From Actinocorallia sp. API 0066 (GTDB taxonomy: Bacteria; Actinomycetota; Actinomycetes; Streptosporangiales; Streptosporangiaceae), in the NCBI RefSeq assembly GCF_020991275.1, contig NZ_JAJLQY010000006.1:248001-312000 (forward strand): 64,000 nucleotides of DNA, read 5' to 3'. A program made the translations under genes and the position numbers. The notes under the pieces are model-generated. The model was not told where the DNA came from, ran no database searches, and saw nothing but the letters and a program-made list of their open reading frames with translations. Position 1 is the first letter of the stretch. Every line of letters starts with the position of its first letter. Positions 25,271 to 58,255 of the stretch are shown piece by piece.

Positions 25271-25696
25271 TTACCTTCTCCCCAGGAGCCGGGCCCTGCC
25301 GAAGGCGGCCACGACGACCCCGCGCGGGTAGAGGCGGAGCGTCGGAAGCCGCCGGGGCCTGGGCGCGTCGCCGTAGCGCCACAGGGCCTCCCGGACGGCC
25401 AGTGCCGCGCGGGCGGGGGCGTCGAGCGAGTCCCGGTGTGCTCGGGCGAAGTCCCACACGTCCTGCCAGGTGCCGCGGGTGGGGTGGTCGGCCGCCCAGG
25501 CGACGTAGGCGTCCCGGTGGGCGAGGAGTTCGGGCCACAGCCGTGCGGCGTCGCCGTACCGCTTGCGGGCCAGCGCGCGCGCTGTGGTCCCGACCCTGTG
25601 CGCGTCGAAGCCGTCCGGGAGGGGCGCGCCCTCGACGAGCGCGCGCACGAGCGCCTCCTGACGGGCGGCGAGGCCGGACGGCTCCTCACGCGGCAC
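25271..25696 (-). CDS. HvfC/BufC-like partner protein of the MNIO enzyme
   Basis: A 141-residue helical protein. It opens LAARQEALVRALVEGAPLPDGFDAHRV, continues TARALARKRYGDAARLWPELLAHRDAYVAWAADHP, and has a basic C-terminus (LRLYPRGVVVAAFGRARLLGRR). Position and helical N-terminus fit the small partner subunit (MbnC, TglI, HvfC/BufC type) that binds the precursor peptide for DUF692 enzymes. The GTG start at 25696 is inside the last codons of the MNIO gene (11-nt overlap), so it is translationally coupled. Sequence similarity to known partners is weak by eye; the assignment rests mostly on context. Confidence 0.65.
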   Translation of the reverse strand: MPREEPSGLAARQEALVRALVEGAPLPDGFDAHRVGTTARALARKRYGDAARLWPELLAHRDAYVAWAADHPTRGTWQDVWDFARAHRDSLDAPARAALAVREALWRYGDAPRPRRLPTLRLYPRGVVVAAFGRARLLGRR

Positions 25697-26528
25697 GTCG
25701 GGTGATCCGTTCCAGCCGGGCGGCGTCCGCGATCGCGTCGAGTTCGGCCGCCAGGACGTGGCCGGGCGGGTAGCCGCCGTCCCGCTCCAGGAGGTAGCCG
25801 AGCCTGCCTTCAGGGGAAAGCCTCTCCTCGGCCTCCCCGACCAGCGCGAGCACCTCCGACGGCACGGGGTCGGTGTGCGTGTCGTGGTAGAGGCCGTCAC
25901 CCTCCATGCCGCCCGCGACATGGCAGTAGGCGACCCGCTCCAGGGGGAAGGACTCCAGGACCTTCACAGGGTCCTGCCCCCGGTTGCGGGCGTTGGCGTA
26001 GACGTTGGCCACGTCGAGGAGGAGCAGCGCGCCCGTCCGGTCGAGGAGTTCGGTGAGGAACTCGCCCTCGGTGTACTCGTCGTCGGGCCAGTCGAACAGC
26101 GCGGCGATCGGCTCGACGGCCAGCGGCACGTCGAGTTCCGCCGTCGTCAGCGCGATGTTGCGGGTGAGCGCGGCCAGCGCGGCGCGGCTGCGCGGCACCG
26201 GCAGCAGGTGCCCCGCCTCCAACCCTCCGGCCCGCACGAACGCGACGTGCTCGCTGACCAGCGGCGCCGCCACCAGCGCGGCGCCGCGCGCGAGGTGCGC
26301 GACCCGCGCCGGGTCCACCTCCTCGGCGCCGCCCAGCGAAAGCTTCACCCCGTGCGGGACGACCCGCACCCCCCGGTCACGCAAGGCGAGCAGCTCAGGG
26401 TCCGGGTGGTGCAGCGACTCGGCTATCACCTCGGTGAAGGCGAGCCCCGGCAGCCCGGCGACGAACTCCGCGATCTCGGGCCGCCAGCCGATACCGACGG
26501 TCGGCCCCGTCGTCGTCTGGAGCGTCAT
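25686..26528 (-). CDS. DUF692-family multinuclear non-haem iron oxidase (MNIO)
   Basis: A 280-residue TIM-barrel protein. Conserved metal-ligand positions are all visible: Glu33 (TEVIAES), His59 (VVPHGVKLSLGG), Glu93-His94 (VSEHVAF), Glu139 (AVEPIAA), Asp172/Asn175 (LDVANVYANA), His203 (CHVAGG), Asp216/His218 (YHDTHTD) and Glu248 (LLERDGG). The family includes MbnB, TglH and BufB, which use two or three irons and O2 to modify cysteines in ribosomal peptides. Its ATG overlaps the stop of the upstream membrane-protein gene (ATGA), whose C-terminus carries five regularly spaced cysteines: the likely substrate. I chose the ATG at 26528 because the longer frame upstream is the antisense-like reading of the Cys tail. 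Confidence 0.9.
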   Translation of the reverse strand: MTLQTTTGPTVGIGWRPEIAEFVAGLPGLAFTEVIAESLHHPDPELLALRDRGVRVVPHGVKLSLGGAEEVDPARVAHLARGAALVAAPLVSEHVAFVRAGGLEAGHLLPVPRSRAALAALTRNIALTTAELDVPLAVEPIAALFDWPDDEYTEGEFLTELLDRTGALLLLDVANVYANARNRGQDPVKVLESFPLERVAYCHVAGGMEGDGLYHDTHTDPVPSEVLALVGEAEERLSPEGRLGYLLERDGGYPPGHVLAAELDAIADAARLERITRRAA

Positions 26529-27439
26529 CCGCCACAGCCTCCGCCGCCGCCGCAGGACGAGCCACTGGAGCAGGAGGAGCCGCTGGAGCAGGACGAGGAG
26601 GACGAGCTGCACGAACTCATCGTGGCGGCCGAGCCGCCCGCGCCGCTGTCCCCGGCGAGCCCCCTGTGCAGTTCGGCCTCGGCGGCGAAAGCGGGGTCCA
26701 TCGCCATGAGCGCGGTGGCGCCGAACATCGCGACGGCAAGGGCGGCGGCCTCATGGCCGTGGGACGCATAAGACGGCGAGGACGCGGGGTGCAGGCCGCG
26801 CAGCTGCCCCGCCGAACGTGCGATCGTCCGCGTGGACCCGCGCGTCTTGACGGGCGCGGCGATCAGCAGGACCACCGTGAGCACACCGATGAGGGCGAGG
26901 ACCGCGACGAGGAACCCGACCGGCCTGTCGTTGGCGAGCCCGGCGACGAGCCGCAGCACGCCGAGCGCGACGACGGCGAGCAGCGGCACCGCGGCGAGCC
27001 GCACCTGCCTGCGCTCGTCGGAGCCGAGCAGTTGGCCGCGCGCTATCAGCGCCTCGCGGATCGCGCCGAGCGCACCGGCCACGCCCGAGTTCAGGTGCAG
27101 GGTGCGGGTCCGCGCGCCGGACCCGGCCGCGTACAGCACCGCGTAGTCCAGCGGCGTCGCGCCGGGCGGGGGCGCGACGCCCGTCGCCCTGACCCCGCCG
27201 CCCTTCTCCGCGCCGACGGCGCCCGCGAGCCGCAGCCGCGCGAGGCTCGCCGCGACGGCCTGACGCGGCCCGCCCACCAGGAAGGCGAGCTCCTCGGCGG
27301 GCAGCCCCTCGGGGTTCTCCCGCCCCTTGCTGAGCCAGCGCCGCAGTCCGAGCACGACGACCAGGACCACGGCCGCGAGGATCCCGTAGTACAGCAGGAA
27401 GTCCCCGCCGGAGATCCCCCAGGTCGGCTCACCGTTCAC
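26525..27439 (-). CDS. TIGR04222-type membrane protein with periodic Cys/Ser/Gly tail; putative MNIO substrate
   Basis: A 304-residue membrane protein. Membrane helix 1 is ~14-34 (LLYYGILAAVVLVVVLGL), a cytoplasmic-looking helical domain follows (GLPAEELAFLVGGPRQAVAASLARLRLAGAV), then two helices at ~148-168 and 173-196, and a hydrophobic segment ~230-250. The last 30 residues are only Ser, Gly and Cys, with Cys at 277, 284, 290, 296 and 302 (spacing C-x6-C-x5-C-x5-C-x5-C). The overall plan matches TIGR04222 membrane proteins, which I remember as having such low-complexity tails. The start is GTG with GGAGG 7-8 nt upstream. It is the first gene of a three-gene overlapping operon with the MNIO and its partner. 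Confidence 0.82.
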   Translation of the reverse strand: MNGEPTWGISGGDFLLYYGILAAVVLVVVLGLRRWLSKGRENPEGLPAEELAFLVGGPRQAVAASLARLRLAGAVGAEKGGGVRATGVAPPPGATPLDYAVLYAAGSGARTRTLHLNSGVAGALGAIREALIARGQLLGSDERRQVRLAAVPLLAVVALGVLRLVAGLANDRPVGFLVAVLALIGVLTVVLLIAAPVKTRGSTRTIARSAGQLRGLHPASSPSYASHGHEAAALAVAMFGATALMAMDPAFAAEAELHRGLAGDSGAGGSAATMSSCSSSSSSCSSGSSCSSGSSCGGGGGCGG

Positions 27440-27572: not shown

Positions 27573-28223
27573 TCACGGGGTGTCCAGGCCCTTTTCGATG
27601 GCGTAGCGGACCAGTTGGACGCGGTTGTGGAGGTGGAGTTTGCCCAGCGTGTTCTGGACGTGGTTCTGCACGGTCCGGTGGGACAGCACGAGGCGTTCGG
27701 CGATCTGGCGGTAGGTGAGGCCCTTGGCGACGAGGCGGAGGATCTCGGTCTCGCGGTCGGTGAGGCGCGGCGCGTCCGGGGCGGGCGCGGGCACCGCGGC
27801 GAGCCTGCGGTACTCGCCGAGGACGAGCCCGGCCAGGCCCGGCGTGAAGACGGCGTCGCCCTGCACGGTGCGGGCCACCGCGTCGAGGAACTCGGCGCGG
27901 GCCGCGGACTTCACGAGGTAGCCGGTGGCGCCCGCCTTCACCGCCTCCAGGACGTCCTCCTGCTCTCCGCTCGCCGACAGCACGAGGACGCGGGCGGGCG
28001 GGTCGAGCGCGGCGAGCGCCCGTGTCACCTCGACCCCGGAGATGTCGGGCAGCCGCAGGTCCACCACGGCGACCTCGGGCCGCACCGCCGCCGCGACCCG
28101 CACCGCCTGACGGCCCTCGCCGCACGCCGCGACGACGTCGTATCCGGCCTCGGCGAGGTCACGGGCCACCGCGTCCCGCCACATCGGGTGGTCGTCCACC
28201 ACCATCACCCTGACGCCGCCCAT
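27573..28223 (-). CDS. NarL/LuxR-family response regulator, MacR-like
   Basis: A 216-residue response regulator. Receiver: VMVVDDHPMWRDAV, phospho-acceptor Asp55 in VVDLRLPDISG, VLVLSAS, and Lys in GYLVKSA. The LuxR-type helix-turn-helix is LTDRETEILRLVAKGLTYRQIAERLVLSHRTVQNHVQNTLGKL. It probably pairs with the histidine kinase at 29.2-30.4 kb; the pair resembles MacRS of Streptomyces, which lies in the same chromosomal neighbourhood. TAAGGT (RC of 28230-28235) lies 6 nt before the ATG, so it also has a leaderless promoter of its own. Confidence 0.9.
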   Translation of the reverse strand: MGGVRVMVVDDHPMWRDAVARDLAEAGYDVVAACGEGRQAVRVAAAVRPEVAVVDLRLPDISGVEVTRALAALDPPARVLVLSASGEQEDVLEAVKAGATGYLVKSAARAEFLDAVARTVQGDAVFTPGLAGLVLGEYRRLAAVPAPAPDAPRLTDRETEILRLVAKGLTYRQIAERLVLSHRTVQNHVQNTLGKLHLHNRVQLVRYAIEKGLDTP

Positions 28224-28305
28224 GGCCCCACCTTACGAATCACGACAAACCGACTAACAGTGTGACGCGCCGGGCGACCCCGGTCCACGCGCGGGCGGCG
28301 TTCGC

Positions 28306-29112
28306 TCAGGACGAGGGCGGGACGACGGTCGGCGGGTCGAACGGCCCCGCGCCGCCCGACCCGGACGGCTCGGGCATCGGCGACCCTTCGGGCAGCGGAG
28401 GCCGCGGCCCCTCATCCGGCATCCCCGGAAAGTCGGGAATCCGCCGCTCCGGGTGGGACCAGCGGTCGCCGTACCAGGGCCGGTCCTCGTGCCACGGCCG
28501 GTCGCCGCCCCACCGCCGGTCGAACTCGACACGGATCACCTCGGGATCGTCGTCACCGTCCCCGACCGCGAGCGCGACCACGCCGCCGCCCACAAGCCCG
28601 CCGAGCAGCCCCGCCGCCAGCAGCGACACCGCCCCCGACCCCACCACCCGCTTCACGCGAGGCCCCCAGGGCCGCCGAGGCGCCCCGGCGGGCCCCGCCA
28701 GCACCTCCCCGCCCCCCAACGGAGGCGCGGGCGGCACCGGCGACGCGACAGCGCCCTCAGCACCCGGCCCGGACCCAGCGCCTCCGGGCGCGCCCGGAGG
28801 CGGCGGCGGCGACGCGACGGACGAACCCTGGCCCGCGTCCGGAACCGGTGACGCGACGGCTCCCTCGGCCCCCTGAACCGGCGACGTGGCGGCGCCGTCG
28901 GGTCCGGGGGCCGGGTCGGCGGCGGTGACGTCCGGGTCGGTGGGAGCGGGCGACGGGGCTACGGTGGAGCCCTCGGGGTCCTGGGTGGGGATGTCGGTTC
29001 GGGTGGTGGGTTCGGGGGTGGGGGAAGGGGCCGGGGGCGGGACAGCGGCGGGCGGGGTGGGGAGCGGGCGGCCCGCTACGGGCTTGTCGTAGGGTTCGCG
29101 GGGGTCGGGCAT
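28306..29112 (-). CDS. Proline-rich single-pass membrane protein between kinase and regulator
   Basis: A 268-residue protein of unknown function. Residues 1-150 are Pro/Ala/Thr/Gly-rich and repetitive (GAEGAVASPVP occurs twice). One membrane helix spans ~158-184 (GSGAVSLLAAGLLGGLVGGGVVALAVG), preceded by RRPWGPRVKR, so the Pro-rich part is probably cytoplasmic. The external part starts with an acidic stretch and then an unusual Trp/Arg/Asp segment (GDRPWHEDRPWYGDRW), ending Pro-rich. GGGAGG lies 5 nt before the ATG. Located between the sensor kinase and response regulator genes in the same direction, it may be an accessory sensor or a target. Confidence 0.65.
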   Translation of the reverse strand: MPDPREPYDKPVAGRPLPTPPAAVPPPAPSPTPEPTTRTDIPTQDPEGSTVAPSPAPTDPDVTAADPAPGPDGAATSPVQGAEGAVASPVPDAGQGSSVASPPPPPGAPGGAGSGPGAEGAVASPVPPAPPLGGGEVLAGPAGAPRRPWGPRVKRVVGSGAVSLLAAGLLGGLVGGGVVALAVGDGDDDPEVIRVEFDRRWGGDRPWHEDRPWYGDRWSHPERRIPDFPGMPDEGPRPPLPEGSPMPEPSGSGGAGPFDPPTVVPPSS

Positions 29113-29189
29113 GGGGGCCTCCCGGGCCTGGCGGGTTGGGGTCGGGGGCGGAACGGGGCAATGATGCACCCGCCGGGTTAAGGGCGGTG

Positions 29190-30365
29190 TCAGCGCGGGA
29201 CGGTGAGCTCCAGCTCGGTGCCCTGGCCGGGCGCGGAGACGATCTCCACGGTGCCGCCCAGGTCCCGCACCCGCCCCCGCACGGACTGCGCGAGCCCCAG
29301 CCGCCCGGCCCGCTCCGCCTCGACGAGACGGCCGGGCGCGATCCCCGGCCCGTCGTCCCGCACGCTCACCGTGACGGCCGCGCCGTCGTCCTCCAGGAGC
29401 ACCCACACCCGCGTCCCGGGCGGGCAGTGCGCCGCGACGTTGTCCAGCGCCGCCCCCACCGCCGCCGCGAGCTCCCGCGCGACGGCACGGGCCAGCACCA
29501 CGGGCGTCGCCGGGGTCGCGAGCTGCACCGAGGCGGAGGCGTAAGGCCGCAGCAGCGCCCGCAGATCAGCGGTGCCGCCGTCGTCGTCGCCGGAGCCGGG
29601 CAGCCGCGGCCCCGGCACCACCGCCAGCACCTCCGCCGAGATCAGGGCGCGCAGCGCCGCCTCCTGCTCCCCCGCGAGCCGTCCCAGCTCGGCGGCCTCG
29701 CCGCCCAGTTCGCCGCCGCGCCGCCGGACCAGCGCGAGCACCTGGAGCACCGAGTCGTGCAGGTCGCGGGCGAGCCGTTCGCGTTCGCGGGTCGCGGTCT
29801 CCAGCGCGACGGCCCGCGCCATCCGCAGCTCGGCGTCGATAGCGAGCCGCCCGAGGTACCCGACGATCACGCCGACCATGAGCAGCAGCACGACGCCGTT
29901 GAACGTCGTCTGGCTGAACACCTCCGCGTACAGCGCGCGCAGGGCGACGTCGGGCACCGCGACGGCCAGCGCCGCCGCCACCCCGCGCCGCGCGCCGCCG
30001 CGCAGCGCCCACGCCATGACGGGCGCCGCCACCCAGCTGACGGTCAGGTTGGGCCGTCCGTCGGCGAGGTGCTCGCGCGTCTCCACAAGCCCGGTGGCCA
30101 GCAGACAGGCCACCGCCACGGCCACGTCCGCGACGCCGAAGAGCCGCCCGCCCCGCACCCGCGCCGCCACGACGGTCCAGGCGGCCATCACCGCGAACAC
30201 CGCGAGCCCGCCCAGCGGATACCGGTACTCGCCGTACCCGTTGGCGATCAGCGCGCCCGCGTAGGCGCACGAGACCGCCCGGAACACCGCCGTCGCCCGC
30301 CACAGCACGGCCTCGACGCCGGGGCCTGTGCGCCGGGCCCAGGGGCGGGCGGCGGGCGTGCTCAT
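29190..30365 (-). CDS. Sensor histidine kinase, MacS-like
   Basis: A 391-residue kinase. About five or six hydrophobic helices fill residues 20-175; a short coiled linker (AVALETATRERERL) leads to the HisKA_3 phosphorylation motif ARDLHDSVLQVLAL with His203. The ATP-binding domain has AALDNVAAHC (N box), RDDGPGIAPG (G1) and GRLGLAQSVRGRVRDLGG. It matches the MacS family of actinobacterial kinases. Its ATG overlaps the plsC stop (ATGA), so the two genes are translationally coupled. The cognate regulator is at 27.6 kb, with a membrane protein gene between. Confidence 0.88.
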   Translation of the reverse strand: MSTPAARPWARRTGPGVEAVLWRATAVFRAVSCAYAGALIANGYGEYRYPLGGLAVFAVMAAWTVVAARVRGGRLFGVADVAVAVACLLATGLVETREHLADGRPNLTVSWVAAPVMAWALRGGARRGVAAALAVAVPDVALRALYAEVFSQTTFNGVVLLLMVGVIVGYLGRLAIDAELRMARAVALETATRERERLARDLHDSVLQVLALVRRRGGELGGEAAELGRLAGEQEAALRALISAEVLAVVPGPRLPGSGDDDGGTADLRALLRPYASASVQLATPATPVVLARAVARELAAAVGAALDNVAAHCPPGTRVWVLLEDDGAAVTVSVRDDGPGIAPGRLVEAERAGRLGLAQSVRGRVRDLGGTVEIVSAPGQGTELELTVPR

Positions 30366-47813: not shown

Positions 47814-49451
47814 TCAGTGCGTCAGCTGCTTGGGCTGGTCGCCCTCTTCGGTCTCGTGGCCGCCGTGGTGGTGCGGGTCGCCGTCGCCCTGGATGGGCAC
47901 GGTGTCGGCGTTCCACCAGAGCGCCAGCCGGGTCCGGAGGTGGCCGATCGGGCCCTTGGTGCCCTTGGCCGGGACGCCGTTGGCGTCGACCGCGGGCAGC
48001 GGGGCCTTCGGCTCCTCCTTGGACAGCAGCTTGGCCTTCTCCGAGGCGGCCGGCTCCTTGTGCAGCTCGGAGAACTCGCCCTCCGGGCTCATCAGGATGG
48101 TGCCGGACTCGTAGCCGTGCGCCATCGTCGCCGCGTCGCTGCGCTGGAGGCCCAGGCAGATCCGCTTGGTGATGATGAACGCCAGCACCGGGAACAGGAA
48201 CACCGTGACGCGGAAGAAGTACGTCGTCGCGAACAGCGACAGGTGGAACTTCTCCGCGAGGACGTCGTTCGCGCCCGCCAGCCACAGCACGCCGTAGAAC
48301 GTCACCATCGCGACACCGAGGGCGGTGCGGGTGGGGGCGTTGCGCGGGCGGTCGTTGACGTGGTGGTACCGGTGGTCGCCGGTCACCCAGCGCTCCAGCC
48401 ACGGGAAGATCGCCGCGCCGGTGAAGATGATGCCGAGCGGCAGCAGCGCCGGGATCAGCACGTTCAGGCTGAGCGTGTGGCCCCAGGCGGTGATCTCCCA
48501 GCCGGGCATGAGCCGCAGCGAGCCTTCGAGCAGACCCATGTAGAAGTCGGGCTGCGAACCCGCCGAGATCGCCGACGGGTCGTACGGGCCGAACAGCCAG
48601 ATCGGGTTGATCTGGGCGAACGTCGCCAGCAGCGCGATGACGCCGAAGGTGTACAGGAAGTACGCGCCGCCCTTGGCCATGAAGACCGGGTAGAACGGGT
48701 AGCCCGTCACCTTGGTCTCGGTGCCGCCGGTGCCCGGCATCTGGGTGTGCTTCTGGTGCCACATGATCATCAGGTGCGCGGTGATGAGCGCCAGGATGAT
48801 GCCCGGGATCAGCAGCACGTGCAGGGTGAACATGCGCGGGATGATGTCCACGCCGGGGAACTCGCCGCCGAACAGGAACATGTACCCGTAGGTGCCGACG
48901 AGCGGGATCGACTCCAGCACACCCTGGGTGATGCGCAGACCGGTGCCGGAAAGCAGGTCGTCCGGGAGCGAGTAGCCGAAGAGGCCCTCGACCATGCCCA
49001 GCGTGAACAGGCCGATGCCGATCAGCCAGTTGATCTCACGCGGCTTGCGGTACGCGCCGGTGAAGAACACCCGGAGCATGTGCACCATCAGCGAGGCCAT
49101 GAACAGGATGGCCGCCCAGTGGTGGATCTGCCGCATGAGCAGACCGCCGCGCACGTCGAACGTGATGTGCAGGGTCGAGGCGAACGCCTCGGACATCTGC
49201 ACGCCCTGCAGCGGCTCGTAGGAGCCGTGGTAGTGCACTTCCAGCATGCTCGGCTTGAACCAGAGCGTGAGGAACACACCGCTCAGCAGCAGGACGATGA
49301 ACGAGTACAGGGCGATCTCGCCCAGCAGGAACGACCAGTGGTCGGGGAAGACCTTCTTGACGTTCCGCTTCATGAAGCCGACCGTGCCGAGCCGGTCGTC
49401 CACGAAGTTCAGCGGGCCCGCGACGGCCTTGGGAAGTTGCTCGTCGGCCAT
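47814..49451 (-). CDS. qcrB: Menaquinol-cytochrome c reductase cytochrome b subunit
   Basis: A 545-residue di-haem cytochrome b with eight-plus membrane helices. Haem-ligand helices contain RGGLLMRQIHHWAAILFMASLMVHMLRVFF and MFTLHVLLIPGIILALITAHLMIMWHQ; the Qo-site region has LFGPYDPSAISAGSQPDFYMG. A ~120-residue hydrophilic C-terminal extension ends in a His-rich tail (DPHHHGGHETEEG). It oxidises menaquinol in the bcc complex. ATG 49451 sits one base after the qcrA stop, with GGGAG ~10 nt upstream; GTG 49460 is an alternative. Confidence 0.95.
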   Translation of the reverse strand: MADEQLPKAVAGPLNFVDDRLGTVGFMKRNVKKVFPDHWSFLLGEIALYSFIVLLLSGVFLTLWFKPSMLEVHYHGSYEPLQGVQMSEAFASTLHITFDVRGGLLMRQIHHWAAILFMASLMVHMLRVFFTGAYRKPREINWLIGIGLFTLGMVEGLFGYSLPDDLLSGTGLRITQGVLESIPLVGTYGYMFLFGGEFPGVDIIPRMFTLHVLLIPGIILALITAHLMIMWHQKHTQMPGTGGTETKVTGYPFYPVFMAKGGAYFLYTFGVIALLATFAQINPIWLFGPYDPSAISAGSQPDFYMGLLEGSLRLMPGWEITAWGHTLSLNVLIPALLPLGIIFTGAAIFPWLERWVTGDHRYHHVNDRPRNAPTRTALGVAMVTFYGVLWLAGANDVLAEKFHLSLFATTYFFRVTVFLFPVLAFIITKRICLGLQRSDAATMAHGYESGTILMSPEGEFSELHKEPAASEKAKLLSKEEPKAPLPAVDANGVPAKGTKGPIGHLRTRLALWWNADTVPIQGDGDPHHHGGHETEEGDQPKQLTH

Positions 49452-49452
49452 G

Positions 49453-50535
49453 TCAGCCACGCTCCCAGAAACTCGGCCCGACGGGCTCGGGGTAGTCGCC
49501 GGTGGCGATGAGGTAGCCCTCGTCGTCGACCGCGATCGGTAGCTGCGGCAGCGCGCGGGCCGCCGGGCCGAAGACCACCTTCGCGCCGTCCGTGGCGTCG
49601 AACGTCGACTGGTGGCACGGGCACAGGATGTGGTGCGTGGTCTGCTCGTACAGGGCGGCGGGGCAGCCGACGTGCGTGCAGACCTTCGAGTACGCGACGA
49701 TCCCGTTGACCGTCCAGTTCTCCCGGCCCTCGACCGGCTTGATCAGCTCGGGCTCGATGTTGATGAGGATCGTCGTCGCCTTCGCGATGAGCGTCAGCGT
49801 CTCCTCACCGTTCTCGTGGATGCCCTCGGGCAGCACGGTGATCATGCCGCCGGGCGAGTTGAAGTCCGAGGCCCGCAGCGGCACGTTGGTGCCGTCCACG
49901 ATGATCCGGACGCCCTGCTTGCCCTCGCGCTTGGCCTTCGCCACGGCCTCGCCCCACCAGGTGGAGCGCAGCCGCTTCTCCGGCAGCGGACCGAGGTCGC
50001 GCAGCAGGAACAGCGGCGCGAGGCCCAGCGGCGCGGCGGCCAGCAGCAGCGTGCGGCGCAGCAGCGGCCGCTTGGTGAAGCCGCTGTCGATCGTGCCCTG
50101 CTGGAAGTCCCTGGCGAAGGACGCCCGGGTCGCCTCGGCGGTGGCGAGGTCGTGCCGCTCCTGCTCGATCGGCACGCTCGTCATCAGCCGGCGGAACCAG
50201 ACGGTGACGCCCGCCGCCATGGCGAGGAACGACAGCGTCATCAGGCTGCCGAGCCACAGGTTCGACTCCTGGGTCCGCTCGATGCCGTGCATGCCGCCGT
50301 CGCGGCCGCTCCAGCCGATGAAGTAGACCATAAAGCCGACGCCCGCGGCGAAGGCGAGCAGGAACAGCAGGGCGACGATGCGCTCGGCCTTCTTGGCCTT
50401 GCTCTCGTCGATGTCGAAGCCGGCCTCGACCGGGCCCGCCTCGTCGTCGGACACCAGGACCTTGCCCGCCGGGGCCGCGGCCGGGGTGCCGATCACGCGC
50501 TCGGGCGCGGGATTCTCGTTGGTTTCGTCGCTCAT
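49453..50535 (-). CDS. qcrA: Menaquinol-cytochrome c reductase Rieske subunit
   Basis: A 360-residue Rieske protein with three N-terminal/central membrane helices (RIVALLFLLAFAAGVGFMVYF; LGSLMTLSFLAMAAGVTVWF; TLLLAAAPLGLAPLFLL), the actinobacterial arrangement. The [2Fe-2S] motif is CTHVGCPAALYEQ with the second half ILCPCHQSTFD. It passes electrons from menaquinol to the di-haem cytochrome c QcrC. The ATG at 50535 overlaps the qcrC stop (ATGA). Confidence 0.95.
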   Translation of the reverse strand: MSDETNENPAPERVIGTPAAAPAGKVLVSDDEAGPVEAGFDIDESKAKKAERIVALLFLLAFAAGVGFMVYFIGWSGRDGGMHGIERTQESNLWLGSLMTLSFLAMAAGVTVWFRRLMTSVPIEQERHDLATAEATRASFARDFQQGTIDSGFTKRPLLRRTLLLAAAPLGLAPLFLLRDLGPLPEKRLRSTWWGEAVAKAKREGKQGVRIIVDGTNVPLRASDFNSPGGMITVLPEGIHENGEETLTLIAKATTILINIEPELIKPVEGRENWTVNGIVAYSKVCTHVGCPAALYEQTTHHILCPCHQSTFDATDGAKVVFGPAARALPQLPIAVDDEGYLIATGDYPEPVGPSFWERG

Positions 50536-51359
50536 GACTTCTTCAGCTTCTTCGGCTTCTTGGCGGTGATCCAGATGGCGGCGAAGACGAGCAGGCCGAT
50601 CCCCACCAGCCAGCCGACGACGCCCTCGGAGACCGGGCCCATACGGCCGAGTCCGGCGCCGCCCGGGTTGGGCTCGCCACGGACCGCCTCGATGAACGCG
50701 ATGATCGCCGCCTTGTCCTCAGGCGTGAGCGTCGTGTCGTTGAAGATCGGCATCGCCTGGGGGCCGGTGAGCATCGCCTCGTACATCTGGACGGGCGTGG
50801 TCTCCAGCAGGTTCGGCGCGTACTTGCCCTCGGTGAGGGCGCCGCCCTGGCCGGTGAAGTTGTGGCACTGCGCGCAGTTCGTGCGGAACAGCTTGCCGCC
50901 GAGGCCGACGTCGCCGCCCTCGGGCACGACCGGGACACCCGGACCGCCGCCCAGCGACTGGACGTACTCCGCGACCGCCGTGACGTTCTCGGGGTCGTCG
51001 AACGGGGCCACGACCTTCTTGGCCGGGACCTGCGCCGCCGTCGTCATCGCCGGCATGCGGCCGGTGGTGATCTGGAAGTGGACCGACGCCGCGCCCACGC
51101 CGATCAGGCTCGGCGCGATCGTGTTGTCGTAGGAGTCCTTGGTGCCCTCGGCGTTCAGGCCGTGGCAGCTCGCGCAGTTCTGGTTGAACAGCTGCTTGCC
51201 CTTGGCCAGGTCGGCGGCCTGCGCCTGGGAGCCGGACGCCTGCGCCTGGTCGGTTGCGGGCGACACACCGGCGTAGATGGCGCCGATGGCCACCAAAGCG
51301 GCCAGCACGACGGCGTAGCCCGCCCACGAGCGCCGGCGCCATGCGGTGAACCTAGTCAC
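50532..51359 (-). CDS. qcrC: Di-haem cytochrome c subunit
   Basis: A 275-residue membrane-anchored cytochrome with two CxxCH haem sites: NCASCHGLN (Cys62, Cys65, His66) and NCAQCHNF in the second domain, plus Met ligands. An N-terminal signal/anchor (YAVVLAALVAIGAIYAG) and a C-terminal membrane helix (VVGWLVGIGLLVFAAIWI) place the haems outside. In actinobacteria it links the bc1 part directly to cytochrome aa3 in a supercomplex. It starts at GTG 51359, 12 bp after ctaE. Confidence 0.95.
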   Translation of the reverse strand: MTRFTAWRRRSWAGYAVVLAALVAIGAIYAGVSPATDQAQASGSQAQAADLAKGKQLFNQNCASCHGLNAEGTKDSYDNTIAPSLIGVGAASVHFQITTGRMPAMTTAAQVPAKKVVAPFDDPENVTAVAEYVQSLGGGPGVPVVPEGGDVGLGGKLFRTNCAQCHNFTGQGGALTEGKYAPNLLETTPVQMYEAMLTGPQAMPIFNDTTLTPEDKAAIIAFIEAVRGEPNPGGAGLGRMGPVSEGVVGWLVGIGLLVFAAIWITAKKPKKLKKS

Positions 51360-51371
51360 GGATGGTCCTCG

Positions 51372-52007
51372 TTATCGGATCAGGTAGATGGTCGCGAACA
51401 GGCCGATCCAGACCACGTCCACGAAGTGCCAGTAGTACGAAACGACGATCGCGCTCGTCGCCTGCTCATGGGTCCAGCGCTTCGCGGCGTACGTGCGTCC
51501 CAGGACGAACAGGAACGCGATCAGACCTCCGGTCACGTGCAGGCCGTGGAACCCGGTGGTCAGGTAGAAGACCGAGCCGTAGGCACTCGCGGACAGGGTG
51601 ACGCCCTCTTCGATCAGGGCCCGGTACTCCCAGAGCTGGCCCAGGACGAAGTAGAGGCCCATGAGGAAGGAGATCAGGTACCAGAAGCGCATCTTCCGGA
51701 GACGGTCGGCGTCGGAGCCGCCCTTCTTCTCGACGGCGAAGACGCCCATCTGGCAGGTCACGGAGGAGAGGACGAGGACCAGCGTGTTGATCGACGCGAA
51801 CGGAAGGTCCAGGTGGGCCTGGGGCCACTCTCCGCCGGCGCCCGTGGTCACCGACCGGATGGTGAAGTACATCGCGAACAACGCCGCGAAGAACATGAGC
51901 TCGGACGACAGCCAAACGATCGTCCCCACATTGACGAGGTTGGGACGATTCGCCCGGCCGCCATGCGTAGTTGTCTTTATCGCGGATGCAGTTGCCACGG
52001 GCAGCAT
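51372..52007 (-). CDS. ctaE: Cytochrome c oxidase subunit III
   Basis: A 211-residue protein with five helices ([115 protein letters not shown]). SELMFF and GFHGLHV are subunit III signatures. It starts the ctaE-qcrCAB operon. ATG 52007 has AGGTG ~9 nt upstream; the longer frame to 52208 is rejected as it overlaps the divergent gene. Confidence 0.94.
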
Positions 52008-52179
52008 TATTACGGCACCTCGCGGCCACCCTGCGCAGGACCCCCCGTTTGCGCCCGAAGCTTCGGTCACAACTTGGAACTTCACCGCGCGCCCCCACGT
52101 TATGGACGAGCCCGCCGCGAGTGGTCCGCAGGGCCGCGTCCGCCCTTGTGGGTTGGGCCTGAGGGAGTATCTTTGCGCC

Positions 52180-52602
52180 ATGAGCACCACGGACGCCACA
52201 CCGGTCAAGGTCCTCGTCTACAGCGACGACGCAGCGACCCGTGAGCAGATCCGGCTGGCCATCGGCCGCCGCCCCGCCGCCGACCTCCCCCGCGTGGAGT
52301 ACGTCGAGTGCGCGACCCAGCCCGCCATCGTCCGCCTGCTGGACGCGGGCGGGATCGACCTCGCGGTGCTGGACGCCGAGGCGCAGCCCGCGGGCGGCCT
52401 GGGCGTGTGCCGCCAGGCCAAGGACGAGGTCTACGACTGCCCGCCGGTCCTCGCGGTGATCGCCCGCAGGGACGACGGCTGGCTGGCGACCTGGTCCCGG
52501 GCCGACGCGGTTGTGCTCCAGCCGCTCGACCCGTTCGAGGTGGCCAAGGAGGCCGCCCAGCTGCTGCGCCGCCGGGCCGCCGACCGCCTGCCCGTGCTGT
52601 AG
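52180..52602 (+). CDS. Receiver-like domain protein, degenerate
   Basis: A 140-residue protein with a response-regulator receiver fold ([21 protein letters not shown], then [59 protein letters not shown]). The phospho-acceptor position is the Asp in VLDAEA, but the conserved Lys before the last strand is Gln (LQPLDP), so phosphotransfer signalling may be lost. No output domain. TATCTT (52168-52173) lies 6 nt before the ATG: leaderless. It is divergent from ctaE and upstream of trpD, a conserved position. Confidence 0.75.
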
Positions 52603-52704
52603 CGGCGGCGGGCCCGTCCCGTCGTCCGCGCCGGGTGTCCCAGACACCCGTGCCCGTCGTCCGTCAGAACGCCAGCCGTCACCGAGCCCGAAAGAGACCT
52701 CGCC

Positions 52705-53757
52705 GTGAGTGCCCGAACCACCTGGCCCGCCCTGCTCAACGCCCTGCTGTCCGGGGACTCCCTGACCGCGGAGGAGACCGGCTGGGCGATGAGCCAGATC
52801 ATGGCCGGCGCCGCGACGGACGCGCAGATCGCCGGGTTCGCGGTGGCGCTGCGGGCCAAGGGCGAGACGGTCGCGGAGGTCGCGGGCATCGCGACGGGCA
52901 TGCTGGCCAACGCCACGCCGCTGGACATCGAGGGCGACCTCGTGGATCTGGTGGGCACGGGCGGCGACCAGCACCACACGGTGAACTTCTCCACGATGGC
53001 GTCGATCGTCGCGGCCGGGGCGGGCGCCAAGGTCGTCAAGCACGGCAACCGCGCGGCGTCGTCCTCCTGCGGCACGGCCGACGTGCTGGAGGCGCTCGGC
53101 GTGGTGATCGACCTGCCGCCGGAGGCGACCGAGCGGGTGGCCCGCGAGGCGGGTGTGGCGTTCCTGTTCGCGCCGGTCTACCACCCGGCGTTCCGGTACA
53201 CCGCGGGCCCGCGCCGCGAGCTGGGCACACCGACGGTGTTCAACTTCCTCGGCCCGCTGACCAACCCGGCGCGGCCGAAGTCCTTCGCGGTCGGGGTGTT
53301 CCACGAGCGGATGGCCCCGATCATCGCCGGGGTGTTCGCCGAGCGCGGCTCGACCGGCCTGGTGTTCCGCGGCGAGGACGGCCTGGACGAGCTGTCCACG
53401 ACCGGCCCGTCCCGGGTGTGGACGGTCCGCGACGGCGTCGTCGGGGAGGCCGTGTTCGACCCGGCCGAGCTGGGCGTCCCCCGCTCCACCCTGGAGGAGC
53501 TGCGCGGCGCGGACGCCACCTACAACGCGGGCGTCGTGCACAAGGTTCTGGCGGGCGAGCCGGGCCCGATCCGGGACATGGTCAGGCTGAACGCGGCGGC
53601 CGCGCTGGTCGCGGCCGAGGGCGCGCCGTCCCCCGACGGCCTCGTCCCGGCCCTGAAGGACGCCTACGAGCGCGCCGGGGAGGCCATCGACTCCGGAGCA
53701 GCCCGCGACCTCCTGGACCGCTGGGTGACCGTCTCACAGCGCCACAGGCCCTCCTGA
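52705..53757 (+). CDS. trpD: Anthranilate phosphoribosyltransferase
   Basis: A 350-residue enzyme. N-terminal helical domain ([43 protein letters not shown]), then the PRPP site [27 protein letters not shown] and [22 protein letters not shown], then [30 protein letters not shown]. It transfers phosphoribose to anthranilate in tryptophan synthesis. It stands apart from other trp genes, as in mycobacteria (Rv2192c), and ends at a palindromic terminator. Confidence 0.95.
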
Positions 53758-53775
53758 GATATTCCGGACAACGCG

Positions 53776-53799
53776 AAAAGGGGCCCGCGGGCCCCTTTT
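53776..53799. terminator. Bidirectional terminator, trpD / L,D-transpeptidase
   Basis: AAAAGGGGCCC (53776-53786) and GGGCCCCTTTT (53789-53799) form an 11-bp perfect dyad with T-runs on both strands, 18 bp after trpD. Confidence 0.88.
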
Positions 53800-53829
53800 C
53801 TGCGTTCCGGTCCTCCCCCGGGCCGGGCC

Positions 53830-55110
53830 TCAGGGGGCCGAGGCGGGCGCCTTGGACGTCTCGGCGGCCGGGGTGGCGGGCGCGCCGCCCTGCACCGAGG
53901 CGGCGGCCTCGGCCTGCGCGGCGGCGTGCGCGGTGCCGTCGAGCCCGGCGGTGGTGACGGCCTTGGCCCGGCTGTTCTTCAGCCAGTCCTTCCAGTTCAG
54001 CTGCCAGTAGCCCCAGCCGTTCTCCGGCTCCAGCTCGCGGTCGGTGCCGACGATCTTCACCGGGTCGCCGCGGTGGCTGATCTTGTGGAACCACTTGGCG
54101 TTCTCCGGCGACAGGTTGATGCAGCCGTGGCTGACGTTCGCCGCCCCCTGCGAGCCCACCGACCAGGGCGCGCTGTGCAGGTACTCGCCGCTGTTGGAGA
54201 TGCGGACCGTCCAGTAGACGTTCATCCGGTAGTAGCCCGCGTCTCCGGGGCCGGCGTCCGGCGACGTCATGACGGTCATGTACTCCTTCTCCATGGTCAG
54301 GTGGTTGCCGTTGGTGGTGATGTACTTGCGGACCCCGCCCTTGCCCATGCTGGCGGGCATGGTACGTGCCTTCTTCCCGGCGATCCTCACCTCGACCTTG
54401 TGCGTCCTGGCGTTGCCGACGCTCTCGATCCGCTCGCCGATCCGGAAGGCGCGGTCGAGGTTCTGCTCCCCGTAGACGCCCTTGGCGAGCTGCACGCCCG
54501 CCAGGTGGCCGATGAGCCGCACCTGGGTGTGCGCCGGCCAGTTCTCCTTGGTCCGGAAAATGACGCTCTTGTCGTCGAACCAGCGCCAGGCGCCCTCGAC
54601 CGGCTTGGACGAGCGCACCTCCAGGGCCCGCTCGACGGCCTCCTTGTTGGTGACCTCGCGGTCGAAGTCGATCTTGATGGGCATGCCGACGCCGACGGTC
54701 TCCTTGGCGTCGGGGAACAGGATCTTGGTGGCCGCCGTCGTCTGCGGCTTGTCCGTGCGGAACGCCGACTCGGCCGTCTGCACCTGGCTGTCGGCGCCGA
54801 ACACCGCGGCGGTGACGGCGTACTGCCCGCCCGGCTGGAGCGGGTAGCGGGACCTCCACGACGACCTGTCGGCCGCCAGGTCGCCCACCACGACGTTGCC
54901 CTGCGCGTCCCTGACAGTGACGGCCTGGAGCGAGCCCCGGCTCGCCGTCACGGTGACGGGCGTGTCGGGCTGTACCGTGCCCGCGTTGGCCGGGGAGATG
55001 ACCACGGCCGCCTCGGGCGGAGCCGACTTCTCACTGGAGCAGCTGGCGAGCAGTGGGGCCAGGAGCAGCCCGGCGGCCCCGACCCTCCTCGCGGCGCGGT
55101 TGACCTGCAC
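53830..55110 (-). CDS. L,D-transpeptidase lipoprotein (Ig-like + YkuD)
   Basis: A 426-residue exported enzyme. RRVGAAGLLLAPLLASC is a lipoprotein signal with lipobox Cys. Two Ig-like domains (~30-230: VVISPANAGTVQPDTPVTVTAS, then TKILFPDAKETVGVGMPIKIDFDREV) precede the YkuD catalytic domain, whose active site is VSHGCINLSPENAKWF (His-x-x-Cys with x = Gly-Cys spacing HGC). A Trp-rich C-terminal helix and an Ala-rich tail follow. It forms 3-3 cross-links in peptidoglycan, like LdtMt2. The GTG at 55110 has GGAGG 7 nt upstream. Confidence 0.92.
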   Translation of the reverse strand: MQVNRAARRVGAAGLLLAPLLASCSSEKSAPPEAAVVISPANAGTVQPDTPVTVTASRGSLQAVTVRDAQGNVVVGDLAADRSSWRSRYPLQPGGQYAVTAAVFGADSQVQTAESAFRTDKPQTTAATKILFPDAKETVGVGMPIKIDFDREVTNKEAVERALEVRSSKPVEGAWRWFDDKSVIFRTKENWPAHTQVRLIGHLAGVQLAKGVYGEQNLDRAFRIGERIESVGNARTHKVEVRIAGKKARTMPASMGKGGVRKYITTNGNHLTMEKEYMTVMTSPDAGPGDAGYYRMNVYWTVRISNSGEYLHSAPWSVGSQGAANVSHGCINLSPENAKWFHKISHRGDPVKIVGTDRELEPENGWGYWQLNWKDWLKNSRAKAVTTAGLDGTAHAAAQAEAAASVQGGAPATPAAETSKAPASAP

Positions 55111-55259
55111 CGTGCAACCTCCTGTGTGTCGTCCCGTCCTGGGCCATGCGAAGACCACAGCGAGAGACGCGGGCCCTCCGCGTCCTGCGATCTTGATACC
55201 CGTGGTGCGCGTGCCCGGAAACATCGACGGGTGCGCGTCCGGTGACGGAACGCAAGTAT

Positions 55260-55302
55260 GCCGAAGGCCGGTGCCGTCCCTGGGACGACACCGGCCTTCG
55301 GC
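55260..55302 (-). terminator. Terminator after ctaF
   Basis: GCCGAAGGCCGGTG (55260-55273) with CACCGGCCTTCGGC (55289-55302), 14 bp perfect, and an inner CGTCCC / GGGACG stem: about 20 bp in all. The ~150 bp from here to the transpeptidase start hold no gene. Confidence 0.75.
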
Positions 55303-55328
55303 GCAAGGTTTTGCCCGGCCGTGGCGGG

Positions 55329-55739
55329 TCAGGCCACGTACTGGCCCCGGTAGTACTCGAACACAAAGCCGATCGAGGTCAGGATCAGCAGCGCGCCGCC
55401 CAGCAGCATGAGCCACGCGCCGAAGATCATGCCGAGGCACAGGGTCGCCGCGGACAGGCCGACCCACAGCGGCCACCAGCTGTGCGGGCTGTAGAAACCC
55501 TGGTCGCCGGCCGAGTCGGCGATCTCACCGAGCTTGTCGTCCTCGGGCAGCTCGACGCCGCGCAGCCGCTCGACACGGTTGATCGTGAAGTGCAGGTACG
55601 CGCCGATCATGAACGCGAGGCCGACGGACAGCGCCATCGCGGTCGTGCCGGTCCACTCGCCCGAGAAGTACCAGTAGACGATGTCGGTGATGAGGAAGAA
55701 GACCCCGCACCCGTAGAACATGAACGCCTGGAAGCGCAT
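55329..55739 (-). CDS. ctaF: Cytochrome c oxidase subunit IV
   Basis: A 136-residue membrane protein of the actinobacterial CtaF type: helices FMFYGCGVFFLITDIVYWYFSG, TTAMALSVGLAFMIGAYLHFT, WWPLWVGLSAATLCLGMIFGAWLMLLGGALLILTSIGFVFEYY, with the conserved FYSPHSWWPLW loop. It is required for aa3 oxidase assembly. It starts 4 bp after the ctaD stop. Confidence 0.93.
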   Translation of the reverse strand: MRFQAFMFYGCGVFFLITDIVYWYFSGEWTGTTAMALSVGLAFMIGAYLHFTINRVERLRGVELPEDDKLGEIADSAGDQGFYSPHSWWPLWVGLSAATLCLGMIFGAWLMLLGGALLILTSIGFVFEYYRGQYVA

Positions 55740-55742
55740 GGA

Positions 55743-57449
55743 TCAGTGCCCCCCCTTCTTCTCGGACCCGCCCTCGATCGCCGCGAGGTCGACACCCGCC
55801 AGCTCGGCCGCCCGCGCGGCCTCGGCCGCGTGGTGCAGGTCGAACGCGGGACGCTCGGAGCGGATCTTCGGGATGGAGGTGAAGTTGTGCCGCGGCGGCG
55901 GGCAGGACGTCGCCCACTCCAGCGAGCAGCCGTAGCCCCACGGGTCGTCGACCTCGACCTTCTTGCCCTTCCGCCACGTGATGTACACGTTGTAGAAGAA
56001 CGGCAGCATCGAGGCGCCCAGCAGGAACGAGCCGACCGTGGAGAGCTGGTTCAGGCCGGTGAACTCCGCCGAGTAGTCGGCGTAGCGGCGCGGCATGCCC
56101 TCGGCGCCCAGCCAGTGCTGGACGAGGAAGGTCATGTGGAAGCCGACGAACAGCGTCCAGAAGTGGATCTTGCCCCACGTCTCGTTCAGCATCTTGCCGG
56201 TCCACTTCGGCCACCAGAAGTAGAAGCCCGCGAACATCGCGAACACCACGGTGCCGAAGACGACGTAGTGGAAGTGCGCCACGACGAAGTAGGAGTCCGA
56301 CAGCTGGAAGTCCAGCGGCGGCGAGGCGAGGATGACGCCGGTCAGGCCGCCGAACAGGAACGTCACGAGGAAGCCGAGCGAGAACAGCATCGGCGTCTCG
56401 AACGTCAGGTGGCCGCGCCAGATCGTGCCGATCCAGTTGAAGTACTTCACACCGGTCGGCACCGCGATGAGGAACGTCATGAACGAGAAGAACGGCAGGA
56501 GCACCTGGCCCGTCACGTACATGTGGTGCGCCCACACGGTGATGGACAGGCCCGCGATGGTGATCGTCGCGCCGACCAGGCCGATGTAGCCGAAGATGGG
56601 CTTGCGGCTGAACACCGGCAGGATCTCGGTGACGATGCCGAAGAACGGCAGCGCGAGGATGTACACCTCGGGGTGCCCGAAGAACCAGAACAGGTGCTGC
56701 CACAGGATCGCGCCGCCGTGGCTGGCGTCGAAGACGTGCGCGCCGAACTTGCGGTCGGCGTACAGCGCGAGCAGCGCCGCGGCCAGCACCGGGAAGGCCA
56801 GCAGGACCAGCAGCGACGTCAGCAGGACGTTCCACACGAAGATCGGCAGACGGAACATCGTCATGCCGGGCGCGCGCATCCCGATGATGGTGGTGATGAA
56901 GTTGACGGCGCCCAGGATGGTGCCGAGACCCGACAGGGTCAGGCCGACCACCCACATGTCGCCGCCGATGCCGGGCGAGCGGACCGAGTCCGACAGCGGC
57001 GCGTAGGCGAACCAGCCGAAGCTGGCGGCGCCGTCCGGCGTGAAGAACGCGGCGACGACGATGAGGCTGCCGAACAGGTAGAACCAGTACGCCAGCATGT
57101 TCATGCGCGGGAACGCCACGTCGGGCGAGCCGATCTGCAGCGGCATGATGACGTTGGCGAAGCCCGCGAACAGCGGCGTCGCGAACATCAGCAGCATGAT
57201 CGTGCCGTGCATGGTGAACAGCTGGTTGAACTGCTCGTTGCTCACGTAGTCCTGGCCGGGCGCGAACAGCTCGGCGCGCATCACCAGCGCCATCACGCCG
57301 CCGATGAGGAAGAACGAGAACGAGGTGATGATGTACAGGTAGCCGATGACCTTGTGGTCCGTCGACGTGATCCAGTTGACGACCAGCCGGCCCTTGCTGG
57401 TGCGCTGGCCGCCCGCGATCGCGGCGGGCTGCTCTGAGATCGCGGTCAC
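55743..57449 (-). CDS. ctaD: Cytochrome c oxidase subunit I
   Basis: A 568-residue haem-copper oxidase subunit with twelve helices. Signatures: [29 protein letters not shown] (haem a His), [22 protein letters not shown] (Cu_B His and cross-linked Tyr), and [13 protein letters not shown] with the two haem His. It reduces O2 to water while pumping protons. The GTG at 57449 overlaps the ctaC stop (GTGA) and has GGAGG 7 nt upstream; a longer ATG-started frame is rejected. Confidence 0.95.
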
Positions 57450-58255
57450 TGCGCGCCTCCGCCCTTCTGCTCGGCGATGTAGGCGTCGAACTCGCCCTGC
57501 GTCACGACCTTCACCTGGAACAGCATCCGCGTGTGGTCGACACCGCACAGCTCGGCGCACCGGCCCTCATAGGTACCGGTCTTGGTCGGCTTGAGCTGGA
57601 ACTGGTTCTCGAAGCCGGGCATGACGTCCTTCTTGTACAGGAACGCGGGAACCCAGAACGAGTGAATGACGTTGTCCGACTTGAGGTTGAAGTGGACGGT
57701 CTTGTTCACCGGGAGGACCAGCACGGGCTTCTCGCCGTTGCCGGTGCCGCCGGGGGCGTCGGGGGCGGTCGGAGTTCCGACGATGCTGACCGGTGTGCCG
57801 TCGGCCTTCTTGAACTGGTCGCCGATGTAGTCGAACTGCCAGCTCCACTGGTAGCCGATGACGTCGACGGTGACGTCCGGGTTGTCCTTCAGGTCCTCGA
57901 CGTAACTCTGGTCACGCGCGGTGTAGAAGAACAGGACGCCGATGATGACGAACGGCACGGCGGTGTAGAGCATCTCGACCGGCAGGTTGTAGCGCACCTG
58001 CTTGGGAAGGCCCTCCTGGCCCTTCCGCTTGCGGTGGAACAACACTGCCCAGATGATCAGGGCCAGGACGACGACGCCGACGGCGCCCGCGGCGATCCAC
58101 GTGCCCTGCCACAGCGTCAGCATGCGATGCGCCTGCTCGCTGGAGGGCTCGGGGAAGCCTACGCGCTTCCATTCTTCGGCGTCGCAGGCGGTGGCCGCCA
58201 TCGCCAGCAGAGCCAGCGCGGACGCGCTGCTCAGCGCTCGGCGGCGGCCACTCAC
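57446..58255 (-). CDS. ctaC: Cytochrome c oxidase subunit II
   Basis: A 269-residue lipoprotein-type subunit II. Signal with lipobox ([12 protein letters not shown]), two membrane helices ([23 protein letters not shown] and [19 protein letters not shown]), [12 protein letters not shown], and the Cu_A site [14 protein letters not shown] plus HSFWVPAF. It receives electrons from QcrC. I chose the GTG at 58255 (MSGRRRAL), which gives a normal signal peptide; the ORF extends far upstream into non-conserved Arg-rich sequence. First gene of ctaC-ctaD-ctaF. Confidence 0.94.

Follow-up and report, generated by a model that had tools for sequence, protein, structure and literature searches.

A three-gene operon in the window, the whole 64,000-nt stretch of DNA that was analysed, raises the question of whether an MNIO enzyme and a small partner protein could modify the cysteine-bearing tail of an integral membrane protein, and if so, by which chemistry and on which side of the membrane. 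An earlier note on this DNA had described three minus-strand genes that overlap at both junctions, and re-reading the coordinates, starts and stops from the window sequence bears this out. The genes, here called g1, g2 and g3, are as follows.

26525..27439, minus strand: g1, TIGR04222 membrane protein of 304 aa, the proposed substrate (NCBIfam TIGR04222 profile, reading frame)
25686..26528, minus strand: g2, MNIO (DUF692) of 280 aa (PF05114 profile, nine ligand positions)
25271..25696, minus strand: g3, 141-aa protein, candidate PME-type 2 partner (AlphaFold model, family position 3' of the MNIO)
26525..26528, minus strand: ATGA stop/start overlap of g1 and g2 (reading frames)

Translation of g1 starts at a GTG (27439) with an AGGAGG-like ribosome site ahead of it and stops at a TGA (26525). 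The second gene runs from ATG at 26528 to TGA at 25686, and the third from GTG at 25696 to TAA at 25271, with an 11-nt overlap between the two (25686-25696). Related operons are often joined in the same way, as 46 of 94 g1/g2 junctions have an NTGA-type overlap (N = A, G or T).

The g1 product matches the NCBIfam family TIGR04222 with 119.3 bits (cut-off 43, E 1.8e-34). As the earlier note had stated, it is a multi-helix membrane protein whose last 30 residues (275-304, SSCSSSSSSCSSGSSCSSGSSCGGGGGCGG) are exclusively Ser, Gly and Cys, and the five cysteines are at positions 277, 284, 290, 296 and 302. Its AlphaFold model (pLDDT 87) has helices fitting transmembrane (TM) segments at residues 11-36, 151-169 and 175-193. 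Between TM1 and TM2 is a domain in which helices and strands are mixed; short broken helices follow over residues 200-262, and the tail is disordered. The protein can be divided into the following parts.

27332..27409, minus strand: TM helix 1, residues 11-36 (AlphaFold model, hydrophobic 19-mer at 14-32)
26996..27298, minus strand: soluble domain, residues 48-148, read as winged-helix-like and predicted cytoplasmic (model, weak Pfam matches, positive-inside bias)
26861..26989, minus strand: TM helices 2 and 3, residues 151-169 and 175-193, a hairpin with both ends positive (cytoplasmic) (AlphaFold model, charge bias)
26654..26755, minus strand: conserved helical segment, residues 229-262, candidate recognition segment (model, motif in soluble relatives)
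26528..26617, minus strand: Ser/Gly/Cys tail, residues 275-304, predicted disordered, the proposed MNIO target (low pLDDT, family statistics)

The soluble domain is modelled as helices plus one beta pair, and members of the TIGR04222 family have weak Pfam matches to HTH_20, HTH_Crp_2, MarR_2, GntR and DUF2207_C. A winged-helix-like region with weak HTH matches, predicted to be cytoplasmic and having membrane-free homologues, would suit a membrane-bound regulator, with this domain as the output and the modified tail as a metal or redox sensor. However, the HTH matches of g1 fall under the curated cut-offs, winged helices are also peptide-binding modules (RRE), and no target is known; such a role is considered improbable. 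DUF2207_C (PF20990) is weakly matched in 23 of 67 TIGR04222 relatives (best E 1.9e-4; residues 43-216 in g1), hinting that the DUF2207 membrane family may be distant kin, and the score of g1 itself (13.2 bits) is under the cut-off of 33. Pfam and NCBIfam profile searches of this 304-aa membrane protein found neither DUF2282 nor the bufferin Cys motif, and Foldseek searches with the g1 and g3 models gave no significant match in the PDB for either; for g3, a likeness to NGO1945 or TglI was looked for in this way.

The second protein is clearly an MNIO, with 240.1 bits against PF05114 (cut-off 25). The earlier note had pointed to its metal-ligand positions, and all nine are present: H59, H94, E139, D172, N175, H203, D216, H218 and E248, the first His being read from the 3BWW alignment. 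In the alignment, these are equivalent to the iron ligands of TglH (His71, His107, Glu151, Asp184, Asn187, His216, Asp229, His231 and Glu258; PMC10880893), and they are invariant in 51 sequences. Judged from its sequence, g2 has what an active MNIO needs. It falls below the cut-off of each characterised MNIO equivalog, the best being BufB (NF050167; 159.6 bits vs 310). Its closest named relative is from Actinocorallia populi (79%), followed by Actinomadura, which places the window in that group. A 100/100 branch splits the operon MNIOs from nine others encoded in related genomes.

For g3, the AlphaFold model (pLDDT 91.9) has five helices and then five short strands, and no NCBIfam or Pfam family is matched at cut-off. 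Published PME-type 2 partners start with a helical domain, to which some add an RRE-like part, either complete or truncated (Antoine 2025, PMC12452194). The g3 gene is directly 3' of the MNIO gene and overlaps it, and its product has no DUF2063 signature, as is expected of a PME-type 2 partner. Membership of DUF2063 (PME-type 1) is not supported at cut-off: g3 does not match PF09836, one of 65 family members has a weak match below cut-off (E 0.084), the g3 profile aligns collinearly but weakly with eight DUF2063-type partner proteins (P 0.07), and DUF2063 is present in 2 of 247 genomes of the class. Additionally, the family member from Micromonospora matsumotoense (L085, 158 aa) agrees by organism and length with a published PME-type 2 example (model B, M. 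matsumotoense, 158 aa; Antoine 2025, PMC12452194). In the partner slot to which the earlier note had assigned it, g3 fits this published family as a candidate member.

Conservation of the three-gene module

The earlier note had named rare adjacency of the membrane protein and DUF692 genes as evidence against its reading, and the opposite is observed. In a neighbourhood sample of 201 related genomes, with TIGR04222 in 146 and an MNIO in 91, at least 80 of the 101 MNIO genes are within 3 kb of a TIGR04222 gene on the same strand, and in at least 79 of these pairs the TIGR04222 gene is upstream of the MNIO. Every one of 72 informative actinomycete loci has the g3 gene 3' of the MNIO, and a g1 gene is detected at 68 of them; these loci are named, have enough flank and were collected by similarity to g2, so the counts hold for the clade of g2 only. 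A 69th locus (L119) has a Cys tail at the g1 position that the TIGR04222 profile missed. At 11 loci with MNIOs of another kind, neither g1 nor g3 is present. The g1-g2-g3 order recurs across many actinomycete genera and Cys is concentrated in the tails, and thus the arrangement is not due to chance. On gene order and sequence comparison, the MNIO and its partner are a clade-specific module.

Outside the Actinomadura group, conservation is limited to the three operon genes. A flanking two-component system and a phosphofructokinase-like gene are syntenic in the Actinomadura group only, and were discarded as functional hints. In the window, the response regulator and histidine kinase genes are at 27573-30365, upstream of the operon. 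The conserved surroundings of the operon include no copper gene, protease or exporter, and the operon itself has no other conserved candidate substrate. Further away, about 20-30 kb from the operon, cytochrome-like genes were recognised by eye on the minus strand within 47814-57560 (a cytochrome b subunit-like gene at 47814-49460 and a cytochrome oxidase subunit I-like gene at 55743-57560); these are probably ordinary housekeeping genes.

Some loci depart from the common layout. Second TIGR04222 copies, tandem or downstream, are near the same MNIO in L003, L007, L009, L103, L142, L150 and L155, and some of them are Cys-tailed and some are not. In two Streptomyces loci (L138 and L141), TIGR04222 genes are downstream, not upstream, of the MNIO and g3 genes, and one of each pair has a longer Cys-rich tail. 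In Actinomadura xylanilytica (L137, 6000-6773), the MNIO is split over two frames with no TIGR04222 gene detected beside it, which points either to decay of this copy or to an error in sequencing.

Tail cysteines and the predicted modification

Cysteine tails go together with the MNIO. In MNIO-adjacent TIGR04222 proteins, Cys accounts for 8.7% of the last 40 residues versus 0.33% elsewhere in the protein. At least two Cys are present in the last 40 residues of 119 of 128 MNIO-adjacent proteins versus 10 of 37 non-adjacent ones (Fisher p about 2e-15), a comparison that does not correct for phylogeny and for which the 37 proteins were hand-picked so that short variants and genomes without an MNIO were represented. 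It was also considered whether these residues could simply be a by-product of codon drift in GC-rich DNA. However, drift from GGC is ruled out because its other one-step neighbours, Ala, Val and Arg, each stay at or below 1% in MNIO-adjacent tails, versus 11.7% for Cys.

It is conceivable that the tail is a plain thiol segment for metal binding or redox activity and that the MNIO acts on another substrate. For instance, some Cys-tailed copies are not beside any MNIO, and many TIGR04222 genes occur without an MNIO (Antoine et al., PMC12452194). Nevertheless, for nine of the ten non-adjacent Cys-tailed copies, the genome encodes an MNIO at another site (L017, two copies; L018; L031, two copies; L156; L157; L160; and L161), the sole copy from an MNIO-less genome being L144. 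Cys is almost missing from the Gly-rich tails of MNIO-less genomes (1%, compared with 11.7% in MNIO-adjacent tails), and the operon offers no other candidate substrate, which makes a plain thiol segment quite improbable. In comparison, modification of the g1 tail by the g2 MNIO is very likely on the combined sequence evidence.

The nature of the product is less certain. The residue that follows a tail Cys (n=522) is Gly in 453 cases, Ser in 37 and Ala in 24, together 98%; in g1 it is Ser after three of the five, which is less usual than in the family. In the thiooxazole-forming MNIO pair FonBC, small residues are favoured after Cys and GACG is tolerated (PMC13097082). The context of the tail cysteines fits the preference of thiooxazole-forming MNIOs, and by this analogy a thiooxazole product is given a chance just short of even. 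The MNIO may instead modify the tail by another chemistry, such as oxazolone/thioamide formation, carbon excision or a new reaction, since the operon enzymes are a separate MNIO group and g2 scores below every characterised equivalog cut-off. In contrast, the nearest model is BufB, the bufferin Buf1 bears thiooxazoles, and the Cys context suits thiooxazole-forming enzymes; another chemistry is considered less likely than not.

Membrane side of the tail

Charge distribution and the model both bear on where the tail is located. In 65 of 67 relatives, Lys and Arg are scarcer N-terminal to TM1 than C-terminal to it, and 66 of 67 have fewer of them in the loop between TM2 and TM3 than C-terminal to TM3. 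Across the family, the segment that precedes the tail has a poor mean membrane score of +1.4, versus -0.2 to -1.1 for TM1-3, on a crude measure that is not a trained predictor. It fails this score clearly in L018, L052 and L058, all of which are Cys-tailed and two of which adjoin an MNIO. The pre-tail motif (of the type VALfG..AL...DP.fA...EL) also occurs in membrane-free relatives (L144-L154). Several of these (L144-L146, L148, L149, L153 and L154) are short TIGR04222 proteins with no membrane helices, mostly from MNIO-less genomes, that keep the pre-tail motif and have Gly-rich tails mostly without Cys. Because of the positive-inside bias, the three-TM model, the poor score of the pre-tail segment and the occurrence of its motif in membrane-free homologues, the soluble domain and the tail are both predicted to be in the cytoplasm, and it is fairly probable that the tail stays there.

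This placement departs from the published prediction, in which the TIGR04222 tail is periplasmic (Antoine et al. 2025, PMC12452194). In the subgroup to which g1 belongs, however, the stretch before the tail is hydrophobic enough (KD 1.55 over 19 residues) that it may be a fourth TM helix. The tail would then end up outside, with the pre-tail segment acting as a late TM helix or as an internal signal peptide: modification would take place in the cytoplasm and export of the tail would follow, perhaps with cleavage, much like a bufferin with a membrane protein as its leader. Cleavage was weighed because DPAFA is followed by AEAEL in g1 (the sequence reads LAVAMFGATALMAMDPAFA and then AEAEL). However, a small-x-small pattern is present before the tail in only 32 of 67 proteins, and the segment is common to membrane-free homologues; an internal signal peptide with a conserved site is not favoured. 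The model also breaks the pre-tail segment into short helices, the crude membrane score of the segment is poor in the family as a whole, and neither a protease nor an exporter is co-conserved. An outside tail is considered unlikely.

Proposed mechanism and comparison with known systems

Overall, the operon is best explained as an MNIO modification system whose substrate would be the C-terminal tail of the integral membrane protein g1. Three helices would anchor the protein, and both the winged-helix-like domain and the disordered Ser/Gly/Cys tail would be in the cytoplasm. From the cytosol, the MNIO would bind g1 jointly with its small partner (PME-type 2-like), probably through the conserved pre-tail segment, and the tail cysteines would be oxidised, most likely to 5-thiooxazoles, with a loss of 4 H per Cys and about 20 Da at maximum for five. 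The product would remain tethered as a membrane-bound buffer for soft metals, most likely copper. These steps differ in strength. It is somewhat likely that the MNIO, acting with its partner, modifies the cysteines in the tail of anchored g1, and a copper role for the predicted metal site is tentative. The complete proposal, a thiooxazole-bearing tail held covalently on a multi-pass membrane protein and facing the cytoplasm as an inward-facing tethered metallophore, is rather doubtful.

If such a metallophore exists, it would contrast with known MNIO metallophores, which are exported or free peptides, and g1 would be leader and anchor at once. MNIO chemistry would then act not only on short peptides that are exported but also on large proteins resident in the membrane, and many actinomycetes (Nocardia, Rhodococcus, Pseudonocardia, Actinomadura and some Mycobacterium) would have an unstudied membrane metal-handling site. 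Since it has only three genes and belongs to a clean MNIO clade, the operon is a convenient one for testing modification, chemistry and membrane side.

The known MNIO systems resemble this operon to different extents. TglHI (3-thiaglutamate) and MbnBC (methanobactin) share the enzyme family, and the nine iron-ligand positions of TglH are kept in g2, but these systems have small precursor peptides without signal peptides, other partners and further tailoring steps. Bufferins, oxazolin and fontiphorin (BufABC, HvfABC and FonABC; 'captophorins') similarly combine an MNIO and a partner that act on repeated Cys, with Gly after Cys in those of the EGKCG kinds, and copper binding in the known cases. 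In contrast to g1 and g3, however, their precursors have Sec signal peptides and their partners are of the DUF2063-RRE type (PME-type 1), whereas the proposed precursor g1 is a multi-pass membrane protein with neither DUF2282 nor an EGKCG motif, and g3 is a short protein that profiles do not assign to DUF2063.

The closest likeness is to the TIGR04222-MNIO-PME-type 2 clusters of Antoine et al. 2025 (PMC12452194), in which TIGR04222 proteins with Ser/Gly/Cys tails, encoded beside MNIO and PME-type 2 genes, were put forward as putative MNIO substrates. Membrane protein family, tail and MNIO are the same, and so, as far as the agreement of L085 by organism and length goes, is the partner type. 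The earlier note thus overstated the novelty of the arrangement, the class having already been predicted, while its statement that no product of this arrangement has been characterised agrees with the literature searched, in which none was found for the TIGR04222-MNIO class. Two differences from the published clusters are apparent: a PME-type 2 partner was assigned in at least 10% of them and many were thought to be partnerless, whereas all 72 loci of this clade have a partner; and the published tail is predicted to be periplasmic, whereas the cytoplasm is favoured here. What is new relative to that work is that the three genes form a fixed module in this clade, together with the statistics on the tails and the arguments for placing the tail in the cytoplasm.
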